From NCBI GenBank assembly GCA_018609195.1, contig JAHCSE010000007.1, forward strand, positions 1-42,357: 42,357 bases of DNA. Direction: 5' to 3'. Numbering within the stretch: position 1 is the stretch's first letter; each line of letters opens with the position of its first letter. Source of the stretch: Patescibacteria group bacterium. Its GTDB lineage: Bacteria; Patescibacteriota; Minisyncoccia; Minisyncoccales; RBG-13-36-15. Below are positions 36,354 to 42,316 of the stretch, piece after piece. A model generated the notes under the pieces. The model searched no databases, was not told the DNA's origin, and was given only the letters and a program-made list of their open reading frames with translations. Made by a program: the position numbers and the translations under genes.

Positions 36354-37292
36354 CTATCTCTTACGGACTGCCTTTTTGGTAAAGCTATTTCCGGCAGGCT
36401 TTTTGGATTTTGAAACGACTTTTTCATTAATTTTCTTGACCGCTTCTAAAATTTCGACTTTTATGTTTAAATCGCTTGAGCAGAAAGTTAAAAAGGCAGA
36501 AAGATCCTTGGGCAGGCATTCATCCTGAAACCCAAATTTTAAAAAATCATGTCGACACCACATATCAGTTTTTTTATCCAAACTAAATTTTACTATTGTT
36601 TTGGGGTCAGCACCCAATCTTTCGCAAATTGCTTTCATTTGATTGAAAAGGGAGATTTTGGTGGCAAAGAGACAATTTGAGGTATATTTTATCATTTCCG
36701 CTGTGCTCGGGGTGGTTTTTAGAATTTCATATTTTTTTCCTGCTCTTTTTCCAAGATCGCGATAGAGCTTTTCCAGTATTCTGCCGGCTTTGAAGTCAGA
36801 CTGGCCAATTATTATTGGACACTCTCCGCTTTCAAAATCTTCTTTGGAAGATTCACTTCTTAAAAATTCTGGATTGAAACAAATTCCATAATCTTTGCCT
36901 AAAACTTTTTTCCCCGCTTTTTTGAACCTTCTGATTAACTTTTCGGTGCGGCCTGGCAAAACCGTGCTTTTTATAACAAGAAGATGATAAGAGGGCTTTT
37001 CGACCAAGTATTTAATGAACTTGGCAAAAGTTGACTCTATAATCGAGCCGTCAAATCGATTGTTTATGGTAGGGGTGGGAAGAGTAAAGAAAGAAATGTC
37101 AGAGTTTAAAATTGCCTCTTTCAAATTGAGGACAGTTGAGCCAAATCGAGTAAGACCTCTTAATCTATTTTCATCAATATCAAAAAAGATAACAGGAAAA
37201 CCGTATTTGGCAAAAACTTTTCCGATGGCTTGACCCACAATCCCGCTGCCAATGATTGAGATTCTTGAATTTTCTGTAATTAACGCTTTCAT
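36354..37292 (-). CDS. UDP-glucose/GDP-mannose dehydrogenase-like protein, short form (312 aa)
   Basis: GSGIVGQAIGKVFAKYG Rossmann, VIKSTVLPGRTE, CFNPEFLRS, catalytic-Cys context GFQDECLPKD; ends before the usual C-terminal domain. Confidence 0.85.
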   Translation of the reverse strand: MKALITENSRISIIGSGIVGQAIGKVFAKYGFPVIFFDIDENRLRGLTRFGSTVLNLKEAILNSDISFFTLPTPTINNRFDGSIIESTFAKFIKYLVEKPSYHLLVIKSTVLPGRTEKLIRRFKKAGKKVLGKDYGICFNPEFLRSESSKEDFESGECPIIIGQSDFKAGRILEKLYRDLGKRAGKKYEILKTTPSTAEMIKYTSNCLFATKISLFNQMKAICERLGADPKTIVKFSLDKKTDMWCRHDFLKFGFQDECLPKDLSAFLTFCSSDLNIKVEILEAVKKINEKVVSKSKKPAGNSFTKKAVRKR

Positions 37293-37443: not shown

Positions 37444-38688
37444 TCAAGTGGAATCATTCTCTCCACTATCAGTGCTTCCACTATCATTATTGTTATTAGC
37501 TTCCTCGTCCACGCCAGAGTTTGAAGAATCATCATCAGGCAGATTACTTGAATCGTCTTCAGGAATAGTAGTTGGTTCTGAAAGAGTTTCTTCATCGCCC
37601 GAACTATTGCTCTCTGAACCATTCTCATTAGAATTATTATCTGTTATTTCTTCATTGGTAGATTCTTCAGTTCCTATTATTTCTGGAATATTATCTTCCT
37701 CTATTGTTTCCTCATTAGTTACTTCCTCCTCAGCGCTTATCTCATCTTCCTCAGAATCGCCATTTGTTATTTCTTCCTCTTGATTTCCCCCTTCAGAACC
37801 ATCATTTATTGTTCCATCAGTCGATGTTTCTTCACTTGAGATTTCTTCGTCAGAATTATCACTTACTATTTCTTCATTGACTTCCTCTTCAAGATTATCA
37901 TTTATTGTTTCTTCTTCAGTTACTTCTTCTTGAACGGGTATTTCTTCAGTAATTGTTTCTTGATTAGAATTGTCAGTTATTATTTCTTCATCGATTACTG
38001 GCTCTTCAGAAATAAAATGGGGATTATCGCCGGGATTCGACGAAGTTGAAGCAAAATAACTTTCTATTTCTTCCTGGTCAAAAAAACCTGAAGAGGGATT
38101 AAGGAAATTGGTCTGCCAGCCTTCAAAGACAAATTTTATCTGGCAGATTTTATTTTGAAAACTTGAACTATCAGGTAAAGACACTTTAAAATGCCAGGTA
38201 TCAATACCGGGCGGATCAATTATTTCCATGGCTGAAAGATTGAACCCCATCAAGCCCCTATTATATTTCTCTCCTCCCTCTAAATCAGCGACTAGTTCGA
38301 GGGTATTGCAGAAATCATCATCGCCTAAAATTTTCTCTGTCTCAACAGTGTATTGAAAAGAGAGTGTACCGTCATTTCTTACGTGAATGACCCGATTAAC
38401 CTCATCTCCTGGCTCTAAATTGAGCGTTTTTTGTAAGGGGACAAAATTATCCTGGCCAGAGCTCAAAGAAAAATCCAAAGCTCCAGCTGAAAGAATATTT
38501 CCTTCTGAGGTTTCAAGATCAGAAAAATTAGCCAGCGTTCCGCCAATAGCCAAAAGCCCGGTCCAGTTAAGGCCGATAATAATTAATAAACAGATAATTT
38601 TTATTGGCGCCTTATTCATAAAATATCTTGAAGAGGGGGTTTTTATCTTTAATTTTTCTGGCGGTATGATATCAAAAAATTTTTCCAT
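37444..38688 (-). CDS. SipW-dependent (TasA/camelysin-like) secreted protein with ~180-aa acidic low-complexity tail
   Basis: GLLAIGGTLANFSDLETSEGNILSAGALDFSLSSG; tail rich in E/D/S/T/N. Confidence 0.8.
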   Translation of the reverse strand: MEKFFDIIPPEKLKIKTPSSRYFMNKAPIKIICLLIIIGLNWTGLLAIGGTLANFSDLETSEGNILSAGALDFSLSSGQDNFVPLQKTLNLEPGDEVNRVIHVRNDGTLSFQYTVETEKILGDDDFCNTLELVADLEGGEKYNRGLMGFNLSAMEIIDPPGIDTWHFKVSLPDSSSFQNKICQIKFVFEGWQTNFLNPSSGFFDQEEIESYFASTSSNPGDNPHFISEEPVIDEEIITDNSNQETITEEIPVQEEVTEEETINDNLEEEVNEEIVSDNSDEEISSEETSTDGTINDGSEGGNQEEEITNGDSEEDEISAEEEVTNEETIEEDNIPEIIGTEESTNEEITDNNSNENGSESNSSGDEETLSEPTTIPEDDSSNLPDDDSSNSGVDEEANNNNDSGSTDSGENDST

Positions 38689-38724
38689 AATAAACGAATT
38701 AAAAATAAAGCAATAATTGTCCTA

Positions 38725-39240
38725 TTAGGTTTTTCTTTGCTCTTTCTTTTTTTTCACTTCTTTAAAAATTTTTTTAATTTCATCAAAAATAATGACGGCA
38801 GCTGGGATAATAATTATGGAAGCAAATCCTAAAGGTTTTTTGGCAAAATCCACGGCATAACCAAGATAAGGGACAGAAAATAAAATTTTGCCTATTACCT
38901 CGTCTTTTACTACTTTTCTCGCGTCTGGATCTTCATTAGCATCGCCTTTAGTAATATAAAAAGTCCCGCCTTCGCTAACTTCTAAATCAACAATTCGATG
39001 GCTGATTAGTTCTTGCCGCTTTTTTGGATTTACAAAAGTGATAACATCATTAATTTGGTAATCATCTATCGGTTTCACTATTACCACGCTCCCCATTTTA
39101 ATTGCAGGTTCCATGGAACCTGACTGAACAACCAGCAATTTATAATTACCGGTAATCGGAAAAACTGAAACAACCAGCAAAACCGCAATTGCGGCAATAG
39201 ACGCAATGAAAATATAATAAATAATTTTAAATAATTTCAT
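38725..39240 (-). CDS. Type I signal peptidase, SipW-like
   Basis: VVQSGSMEPAIKMGSVVIVKP, ISHRIVDLE, KGDANEDPDARKV; start taken as MKLFKIIYY. Confidence 0.9.
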   Translation of the reverse strand: MKLFKIIYYIFIASIAAIAVLLVVSVFPITGNYKLLVVQSGSMEPAIKMGSVVIVKPIDDYQINDVITFVNPKKRQELISHRIVDLEVSEGGTFYITKGDANEDPDARKVVKDEVIGKILFSVPYLGYAVDFAKKPLGFASIIIIPAAVIIFDEIKKIFKEVKKKKEQRKT

Positions 39241-39288
39241 ATTTTTTAAAACCTTTACAGGCTGCCCCAAACCGCCCACAAGGATTTA

Positions 39289-39315
39289 TCCTCCGAAGCT
39301 TTTAGCGAAGGAGGA
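39289..39315 (+). repeat. Short palindromic element, GCGAAGGAGGA family
   Basis: TCCTCC-GAA-GCTTTTAGC-GAA-GGAGGA. Confidence 0.8.
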
Positions 39316-39370
39316 AAAGACGTTGAGGCAACCGAAAAGACTTCAAACATTACAGAATCAATGCTTATTA

Positions 39371-40138
39371 TTAGAGCTGGACATCTGAACACTCAAAATC
39401 AGGATTGTTTCTGACCTGCTCACCAAAGAGTACCACGTTAGCGGTAAAGGAATCTGTCTGCACCTCGTCTCCCATACCAGAACCATCACAGGTAACCACA
39501 CCAGTCGTGTTATTGACTGTTTGCGTTCCTGCACACCAGGTCAACGCTATATTTCTGGTAACATTTGGCACGAGCTCGGAAGTATCTGTAGAATTCGAAT
39601 CAAATATAACCACATAGGTTATATCGAAAAATGAATCCACAGCAAAGTTACCATTTGTGAGAAGCGCAGGCTCGTTGTTGCTCGTAGGATCGTAGACTTG
39701 ATTGCCGTTAAGATCCTCCCATGCAAACAAGTCTATGTTCTTAGACATTTCTCCAACAACTGAAGTGGTATCGCCAACTGCTGTTTCAGGTCCAGTCAGG
39801 ACGTTCTCTAAGTCAACCTTGTCATCGAGAAGCAAACAGGCGTACGCAGAATTCTTGGCAACATGCAGACTTATATGCCTTGTTCCATAATCTCCGGGCT
39901 TGATGTCATCAAACACGAAAAACTTCTCGCTCGTCAGGTCTTTGGCAGGGAAATTAGTACCGAGAAGGTCTGTCCCATTATATGAGGAACCATTACTATC
40001 TACAGTAATGTCAATACTCCCTGCGGTAATAATGTTTCCAGTTGAAGTCTCCGTATCATTGAAGAATGCAATCGTACCTCCAGCAACAACACCAGCAGCA
40101 ATCCCTATAATGCTTAAACTAATCAGGATTTTTTTCAT
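39371..40138 (-). CDS. TasA/camelysin-like secreted protein, paralog 2
   Basis: MKKILISLSIIGIAAGVVAGGTIAFFNDTETSTGNIITAGSIDITVD. Confidence 0.85.
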   Translation of the reverse strand: MKKILISLSIIGIAAGVVAGGTIAFFNDTETSTGNIITAGSIDITVDSNGSSYNGTDLLGTNFPAKDLTSEKFFVFDDIKPGDYGTRHISLHVAKNSAYACLLLDDKVDLENVLTGPETAVGDTTSVVGEMSKNIDLFAWEDLNGNQVYDPTSNNEPALLTNGNFAVDSFFDITYVVIFDSNSTDTSELVPNVTRNIALTWCAGTQTVNNTTGVVTCDGSGMGDEVQTDSFTANVVLFGEQVRNNPDFECSDVQL

Positions 40139-40220
40139 GGTAGTTAGTTATCCCTCCCCCACCATTCTTCTTAAGAATGGTGGGAAAAGAGAAAACTTAA
40201 ATCAATCAATTCAGTAAAGG

Positions 40221-41084
40221 TTAGCTGCCACAAACAAAGTTTTCGTTGTTTCGTGACTGAACCGCAGTAAAGGACATATCGCCCATTAAGCTATCTGACT
40301 GAGAAGCATTGTTTACAGATACACCATTACAGATAAATCCAGGGCCCTGTAATCCACCTGGATTTATAGGAAGGCCAGAACCATTTTGTGGGACTGGATT
40401 ACTGAAGTCGAAGCTACCGAAGCAAAATGCCTTGCCGATGTATTTGATTGTATCTCCTCCAGGGAATGGATCACCAATTTTCAGTGGATCGAATAAGTTA
40501 AACCTTGAGTCAACGATTGGGAATGTCTGTCCTGTGTTATTAACAACACCACGTGGAAGGTCGCTTGGAGTTCCTCTGAGCGCTATTTCCTCGCCGACTT
40601 CCAGTACATTATCTCCATCGTCTGCCCAGAAGATAAACTGAAGTTCTTTACCTAACTCACCGTTCCAGTCATCACCTATTGCACAGTTACGATCATCTCC
40701 AACCTCTGGCTCTGTACAAGTAACATCAGAATCCTTGGTGATAGTCAGGTTAGCACACACCCAGGAAGGATTGTTATCAACATGGATGCTAATTGTATCT
40801 TCTTCCCAGTCTCCAGGCTTTAAGTCGGTGTAGTTAAAGAAGAGATATTTACCACCTCCTGATGGTCCCTGACCATCACTAAGATCTGCTAGAGTCCAAG
40901 TAAAGTCGCTTTGCGCTACACCATTGAACCATGCAGTGTTATCAATCTTCAAGTCAATTGAACCTGCGGTGAAGGTGTTTCCTGTTGAAGTTTCTGTGTC
41001 GCTGAAGAAAGCAACAGTTCCACCAACAACAACAGCAGCGGCTAAAGCGATTACGCTCAAACTAATTAGGATTTTCTTGTTCAT
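40221..41084 (-). CDS. TasA/camelysin-like secreted protein, paralog 1
   Basis: MNKKILISLSVIALAAAVVVGGTVAFFSDTETSTGNTFTAGSIDLKID. Confidence 0.85.
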   Translation of the reverse strand: MNKKILISLSVIALAAAVVVGGTVAFFSDTETSTGNTFTAGSIDLKIDNTAWFNGVAQSDFTWTLADLSDGQGPSGGGKYLFFNYTDLKPGDWEEDTISIHVDNNPSWVCANLTITKDSDVTCTEPEVGDDRNCAIGDDWNGELGKELQFIFWADDGDNVLEVGEEIALRGTPSDLPRGVVNNTGQTFPIVDSRFNLFDPLKIGDPFPGGDTIKYIGKAFCFGSFDFSNPVPQNGSGLPINPGGLQGPGFICNGVSVNNASQSDSLMGDMSFTAVQSRNNENFVCGS

Positions 41085-41113: not shown

Positions 41114-41217
41114 TAAGTGGCTCGCCTTAGGTCCCTCCTACGCTGAAGCCTAAGGACTTCACCCTGTCTATCCTTCAAAAGCTTTTGGCGAAGGAGGACT
41201 TAGGGTAAGCCACTTCT
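41114..41217. repeat. ~100-nt composite palindrome in the leader of the first TasA-like gene
   Basis: AAGTGGCT...AGCCACTT arms; contains tccttcaaaagcttttggcgaaggagga at 41171-41198. Confidence 0.8.
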
Positions 41218-41371: not shown

Positions 41372-41513
41372 GCTGAGGAATTATGTTGACCTGACACAAA
41401 AACAGCACTACTTCCTTATCTCGTTCCTCCGCGAGATAGATTTTTGTATGTCATTATATTATTATTAAATAAAGAGAGAGTCAAGAAAGAGTTATCCACA
41501 CCCTGTGAGAAAC

Positions 41514-41603
41514 TTTCTTTGGGCTCCCAAGTCAGGGAGGAATTCCATACCCTATAGGAGAGAAATCTCGCTACTGGGTTTACTAACTGGGCGCCCAAAG
41601 AAA
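41514..41603. repeat. 90-bp element with 11-bp terminal inverted repeats
   Basis: tttctttgggc ... gcccaaagaaa. Confidence 0.7.
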
Positions 41604-41651
41604 ATCTCCCTTGTCCGCCTAAATTTTACAAGATAAATTTTGGCGGGCTTA

Positions 41652-41857: not shown

Positions 41858-42316
41858 CTACTTCAGCTCAACTTTGGCTCCTGCTGTCTCTAATTTCTTT
41901 TTTATTTCCTCTGCCTCTTCTTTTTTGGCATTTTCTTTTACCATCTGAGGAGAACTGGCAGCTGCATCAACTAAATCTTTTGCTTCCTTTAAACCCTTTC
42001 CCGTAACATCCCGGACAACTTTAATCACTTCAATTTTCTTATCTCCAACTTCTTTCAGCTCAATATTGAAAACAGTCTTTTCTTCTGCGGCGGGAGCGGC
42101 CCCCTCAGCTCCTGTGACTGCAGTAGGGGCGGCTACAACCTGAGCTTGAGCGGTCACCCCAAACTTCTTTTCCAAAATCTTCACTAACTCTGCCAAATCC
42201 AAAACCGAAAGTTTTTCAATTTTTTCAACAAGATCTTTAAACTTCTCTGGAACTACTACTTTTTTCTCTGTTTTCGCAGATTTTTCGGAGTCTATTTTTT
42301 CTTTTTTTTCTGCCAT
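41858..42316 (-). CDS. rplL: 50S ribosomal protein L7/L12
   Basis: [74 protein letters not shown]. Confidence 0.96.

Follow-up and report, generated by a model that had tools for sequence, protein, structure and literature searches.

A TasA/SipW-type fibre operon conserved among Patescibacteria: the build of its third substrate suggests a fibre-end role

The window, the whole 42,357-nucleotide stretch analysed here (contig JAHCSE010000007.1 of assembly GCA_018609195.1, from a Patescibacteria group bacterium), holds a gene set that seems made for protein fibres at the cell surface. On the minus strand, in the order originally predicted and borne out by the open reading frames (ORFs), stand two TasA-like proteins (A, P0001; B, P0002), a SipW-type signal peptidase (P0003) and a third SipW substrate (P0004, the third protein). 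We judge the cluster to be a genuine fibre operon of the TasA/SipW type, conserved among Patescibacteria, and the build of its third component suggests a role at a fibre end. That the cluster is a TasA-type fibre system in which the third protein is a donor-only end component, the starter, we consider probable, if only just.

The proposed pathway begins with the SipW-type peptidase, which would cut the signals of all three substrates and free an N-terminal strand near the motif A/F-F-S-D-x-E. By donor-strand exchange, this strand of subunit A or B would enter the groove of the following subunit, and the groove of A or B would in turn receive the strand of the preceding one; the product would be a homopolymer or a heteropolymer. 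The third protein would likewise donate its N-terminal strand, but the donor-strand repeat at the domain's C-terminal end would occupy its own groove; with that groove filled, the protein could not take a strand and would sit at one fibre end only. It would thus have the starter role that TapA plays in Bacillus subtilis, and its long acidic tail would extend outward as a flexible, charged and disordered segment. The original prediction had proposed an extracellular fibre or surface layer with a spacer, anchor or calcium-binding tip: the former is best understood as a fibre assembled through donor-strand exchange, and in place of the latter choice the sequence points to a donor-only fibre-end component.

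Substrates, signals and peptidase

All three substrates score above the curated cut-offs of the camelysin family (Pfam Peptidase_M73, PF12389, 22.5 bits; A 37.1, B 27.2, third protein 29.5 bits) and of the SipW-dependent signal (TIGR04088, 19 bits; 35.6, 33.6 and 20.4 bits, respectively), which confirms that two TasA/camelysin-like proteins are accompanied by a third substrate-like one. The Pfam model covers only about 40-70 residues near their N-terminus, and against the equivalog model of TasA proper (NF046066, cut-off 450 bits) they reach just 20, 15.2 and 22.4 bits. Subunit B, row 2 of an alignment of 48 TasA-likes (A2), is 30% identical to A. The peptidase was also rightly called SipW-type, with 118 bits against TIGR02228 (cut-off 51.85 bits), and 119 bits against NF046067, the model of Bacillus SipW, below its cut-off of 190 bits; residues S42, H81, D100 and D106 are invariant in 13/13 sequences of its alignment (A1). 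The enzyme looks dedicated, since the three substrates are the only camelysin-type matches found in the genome (854,499 bases, 98.8% complete) and a separate LepB-type peptidase (145 bits) is encoded on another contig.

Predicted folds

AlphaFold2 (AF2) models were made for mature subunit A (48 sequences) and for residues 50-222 of the third protein (45 sequences), with a predicted local distance difference test score (pLDDT) of 84.6 and 86.5, respectively. The TasA-like fold that had been foreseen is found in these two of the three substrates: for both, the Foldseek match ranked first in the Protein Data Bank (PDB) is the TasA fibre 8AUR (E 1.1e-4 for A, 1.4e-5 for the third protein). By VIA-align, 166 residues of A align to 8AUR with Z 8.2 and a root-mean-square deviation (rmsd) of 4.2, the next non-TasA row having Z 6.6, and 125 residues of the third protein align with Z 9.7, rmsd 2.3 and 20% identity. 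Mature residues 1-16 of A are disordered, and the first ten residues of the third model have a mean pLDDT of 48, as expected of a free donor. Direct sequence searches of the PDB with P0001 and P0002 gave nothing useful, nor did the A2 profile match there; the profile of 45 third members (A3) finds TasA in the PDB by sequence (8AUR, E 0.001; 5OF1, E 0.0048). TapA structures are not among the VIA rows listed for the third model, which excludes nothing.

The donor motif and its second copy

TasA of B. subtilis is described as polymerising by way of its N-terminal strand, which completes the sandwich of the next subunit (PMC9674648). In the Patescibacteria proteins F/Y-x-D-x-E opens the mature chain, the strict pattern F-x-D-x-E being present at the mature N-terminus of 43/48 TasA-likes and 36/45 third members. 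The filament contact reported for TasA involves Phe29, Pro62, Phe200 and Gln232 (PMC10151520); by our own reading of the alignments, the matching Pro of K-P-G-D is kept in 48/48 and the Gln in 46/48 TasA-likes, and the Gln in 38/45 third members.

What sets the third members apart is a second F-x-D-x-E at the C-terminal end of the domain, found in 41/45 of them and in 0/48 TasA-likes (0/79 in a wider check). Shuffling predicts 0.71/45, and the motif occurs in 17/2130 (0.8%) background windows of 30 residues. In the model of the window's third protein the repeat forms an extra strand at 154-165, where mean pLDDT is 94 (residues 151-160) and 84 (residues 161-170). This strand falls inside the part of the model, 20-169, that aligns to 2HB0 (VIA Z 9.7, rmsd 3.1, 134 aligned), described as an adhesin to whose C-terminus a stabilising donor strand has been attached (PMC8401227). 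Four proteins in which SipW is fused to third-type sequence (loci L093, L101, L102 and L123) retain the signal, the donor strand and the acidic tail and have lost both the domain and the second motif; they fit self-complementation, because the motif has gone along with the domain that it would complete. The simplest reading, then, is that the repeat would fill the third protein's own groove.

Several points weigh against this reading or its corollaries. The A3 rows were picked by coverage of the second-motif region itself, and outside A3 the motif is present in only 5/22 third members, making 44/65 in all (39/43 in A3). Moreover, in TasA monomers the strand 48-61 is reported to fill the groove and then to be displaced (PMC9674648), so that a filled groove need not mean an inability to take a strand. 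The VIA Z of the third model is tied with that of several unrelated immunoglobulin (Ig)-like domains, and the fold alone is therefore not specific for this protein. Finally, the TapA model TIGR04087 is silent throughout the genome at E up to 10, the B. subtilis control being positive, and sequence-level homology to TapA was accordingly rejected.

Conservation and architecture in relatives

With the peptidase alone as query, 80 loci were collected from species genomes, mostly titled as Patescibacteria groups. The single peptidase matches in 19/60 relatives at E <=0.001, and the peptidase alignment in 81/379 genomes of the phylum at E <=1e-15; the weaker matches possibly belong to other archaeal-type peptidases. 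The distribution is patchy: the family to which the window's genome belongs has three other genomes, two with weak peptidase matches only and one with none. The genes keep company where the system occurs, a point on which the original prediction hinged: a camelysin- or LTD-type (lamin-tail domain) third gene lies directly downstream of the peptidase gene on the same strand in 65/80 loci, overlapping it in 48 of these 65 (22 by 4 bases). Among the other 15 loci, 11 have a peptidase ORF longer than 270 amino acids and four have neither. Such long ORFs number 12; of the ten that were read, nine carry the third-type donor motif behind the peptidase and are thus fusions, adding nine loci to the 65. 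The tenth, L111 (6899-8227), is fused to a protein like the fifth one described below, Ig-like and with an LPETG-membrane end.

Upstream, there are 1 to 4 TasA-likes per locus, with two in 30 of the 56 loci that have at least 2,500 bases there. Downstream, the third protein of relatives is 186-1353 amino acids long, mostly longer than that of the window, and its usual layout is a TasA-like domain, an LTD (PF00932) and then the acidic tail. The LTD was found in 47/61 scored loci (four of the 65 were left out for a contig end or too little remaining sequence) and a CBM96/DNRLRE domain in 1/5 scanned. A fifth gene follows the third in 44/61 scored loci; its product has a domain related to that of the third protein and C-terminal hydrophobic segments, plus a purple-acid-phosphatase-N/Fn3-like domain in the two scanned. 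LTD and fifth gene co-vary, with both in 40 loci, the LTD only in 7, the fifth gene only in 4 and neither in 10 (Fisher P 1.2e-4; loci L047-L126, relatedness ignored), as if the LTD-bearing third protein and the fifth protein worked as a pair. The window represents a short form, its third protein lacking the LTD and its cluster the fifth gene. The fifth gene is taken as absent from the whole genome, because searches gave weak or partial matches: a one-protein query reached a best E of 0.067, and an alignment query E 6.7e-5 over the Fn3-like part 190-290 only, on another contig.

A few loci stand aside from this pattern. L043:5273-9509, from the window's own family, has a different archaeal-type signal peptidase cluster behind rplL, with substrates that begin ...AYEAHIINVTA and that match no NCBIfam family above cut-off; L027 (628-5626) seemingly has both this and the SipW-type cluster. 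Similar peptidases with TasA-like matches occur at L098, L122 and L088, on contigs titled Methanocellales, Bathyarchaeota and Omnitrophota, respectively, through wrong binning or transfer.

The acidic tail

A tail of about 180 residues rich in E, D, S, T and N had been noted in the third protein. It comprises 189 residues (226-414), including 49 E and 21 D (70 D/E, 37%), 26 S, 24 N and 19 T, and not one K, R, F, Y, W, H, M or C. The tail is more than a product of chance, because an 80-residue stretch with net acidity >=0.25 occurs in 44/65 downstream third members vs 1/204 unrelated genes of at least 250 amino acids in the same loci, and it is retained even where the folded domain has been lost, in the SipW fusions. 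It may act as a spacer, help solubility or work electrostatically, or bind ions. In the tests described, the disordered C-terminal parts of both TapA (PMC10151520) and CapP of Bacillus cereus (PMC13082335) are dispensable for biofilm, so that the window's tail may be less important than its appearance suggests.

Which end, and what task

The fifth protein offers a possible view of the whole fibre. It shares a homologous domain with the third protein (hhalign probability 97.2, E 3.6e-11), its own version starting behind the donor strand and stopping before the second motif. Among 49 fifth proteins, a set with at least two wrong picks (L062 and L111), F-x-D-x-E occurs near the N-terminus in 1/49 and behind the domain in 2/49, and a hydrophobic segment beyond residue 200 is present in 46/49. 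One of the fifth proteins, that of L107, ends in a sorting-like LPITG signal. Strand bookkeeping tentatively suggests an order from a donor-only starter (the third protein, at the far end) through a donor-and-acceptor shaft (the TasA-likes) to an acceptor-only, membrane-anchored end (the fifth protein, at the cell), an arrangement we would not yet call likely. If true, it would make this a pilus-like system of fixed polarity without usher or sortase, of which the window's genome would have a reduced form without the anchor.

The third protein might instead be a fibre tip or surface adhesin, its TasA-like domain docking and its variable part (LTD, carbohydrate-binding module, acidic tail) binding a partner cell or surface. 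The size and variability of the protein in relatives, with the frequent LTD and the occasional CBM96/DNRLRE domain, speak for this, and were the membrane-anchored fifth protein to take the last strand, the third would lie at the far end. The window's protein, however, has neither LTD nor CBM96 but only a tail, and the binding partner is putative; we regard this account, which can coexist with the donor-only reading and departs from it in the task of the end component, as possible but on the unlikely side. A little less likely again, the third protein might anchor or nucleate fibres at the cell side, its tail keeping it close to membrane or wall. Fusion to SipW would place third-type sequences at the membrane, at least until cleavage, and TapA is reported to co-localise with the membrane (PMC10151520). 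P0004, on the other hand, has no C-terminal membrane segment, SipW should release it, and in relatives the fifth protein is the better anchor. The evidence on fibre orientation is divided: the SipW fusions speak for a third protein on the cell side, whereas the acceptor-only look of the fifth protein speaks for a third protein at the far end.

Two further alternatives change the role of the strands or of the domain itself. The C-terminal F-x-D-x-E strand shares motif and spacing with the true donor and might be a second donor, given to a neighbour, so that the third protein would join or branch fibres. This is improbable, for the strand is confidently folded in the model while the N-terminal donor is loose, and it was lost along with the domain in the four fusions. 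That the substrates are camelysin-type metallopeptidases is suggested by the name of the Pfam family; we hold this to be very improbable, and camelysin peptidase activity as main function was rejected, because the Pfam match is short and the modelled domains resemble the TasA fibre.

Comparison with known fibres

The closest parallel is tapA-sipW-tasA of B. subtilis, which has a SipW-type peptidase, TasA-fold subunits, tight coupling to the sipW gene and a further substrate with a long N-terminal region, a folded Ig-like domain and an unstructured C-terminal tail. The window differs in having two TasA-likes, a reversed gene order and an acidic tail, and in a third protein that is not a TapA homologue and combines a TasA/camelysin-family domain with a second donor-like strand. 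TapA is described as having a complete Ig fold and an unstructured, dispensable C-terminal region, and its residues 44-57 alone as sufficing for biofilm (PMC10151520). The third protein is likened to TapA because TapA, with its complete Ig fold, has also been proposed to be donor-only; we infer an analogue, not a homologue. The TasA-CalY-CapP system of B. cereus likewise pairs two TasA-type subunits with a third assembly protein that has a disordered repetitive C-terminal domain, but CapP is described with a DUF4047 N-domain and QKKV/AEE repeats in place of a TasA-like domain (PMC13082335).

Archaeal threads and bundling pili are donor-strand polymers. Subunit A resembles them in structure (7pnb, Z 5.8, rmsd 4.9, 153 aligned; 7ueg, Z 5.9, rmsd 6.0, 151 aligned), although the A2 profile finds no sequence match. 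Chaperone-usher and class 5 pili (CfaE 2hb0, 3f83) share strand complementation, and the donor-complemented adhesin aligns across the extra strand of the third protein; unlike them, the window's cluster shows no usher or PapD-type chaperone gene, and the opposite strand polarity is proposed.

No paper on TasA/SipW systems in Patescibacteria was found in the open-licence literature, which is weak evidence of novelty since only open-licence papers were covered. The source bacterium is probably tiny and host-dependent, and how small Patescibacteria hold on to and interact with other cells is largely open, their surface structures being poorly known. This conserved operon brings together a fibre fold already known, a peptidase of its own and an end component that can be predicted, and it supplies defined proteins for expression, imaging and testing. 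Moreover, the repeated donor strand would serve as a simple sequence rule by which to tell shaft from start and anchor subunits in TasA-type systems.

Feature coordinates and genome setting

Features of the TasA/SipW-type cluster, in positions of the window
Feature	Position	Strand	Remarks
TasA-like A (P0001)	40221-41084	minus	287 aa (amino acids); SipW-type signal, free N-terminal donor segment AFFSDTETSTGN, beta-sandwich
TasA-like B (P0002)	39371-40138	minus	255 aa; camelysin-like fibre subunit
SipW-type (archaeal/ER-type) signal peptidase (P0003)	38725-39240	minus	171 aa from ATG; ORF opens at GTG 39279, a possible start
Third SipW substrate (P0004)	37444-38688	minus	414 aa; proposed donor-only fibre-end component
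N-terminal donor segment of third protein	38482-38529	minus	residues 54-69, NFSDLETSEGN...; F-x-D-x-E motif
TasA-like beta-sandwich domain of third protein	38089-38481	minus	residues 70-200; AF2, Foldseek, VIA, A3 profile
Repeated donor-like strand GFFDQEEIESYFAS	38047-38088	minus	residues 201-214, C-terminal end of the third protein's domain
Acidic tail of third protein	37447-38013	minus	residues 226-414; degenerate repeats, DNA repeat family D1
Strong hairpin without T run between the TasA-like genes	40155-40192	minus	RNA fold z -5.56 for 40139-40205; not listed as terminator
Second stem-loop, gap between TasA-like B and peptidase genes	39245-39345	minus	RNA fold z -4.19 for 39241-39345; no terminator T run

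The four genes lie between rplL (41858-42316), upstream, and a sugar-nucleotide dehydrogenase gene (36354-37292) beyond the 3' end of the cluster, both names being our own reading of the sequence. An Rfam scan of the window returned three tRNAs and nothing else. A 21-bp inverted repeat (41509-41608, 86% complementary, no Rfam match) lies in the long stretch that separates rplL from the first TasA-like gene, and a 20-nt sequence occurs twice in the operon gaps, at 39296-39315 and 41179-41198, with 95% identity. Judging from sequence and predicted folding, the hairpins in the gaps could cut the share of message from downstream genes and so leave subunit A in excess.

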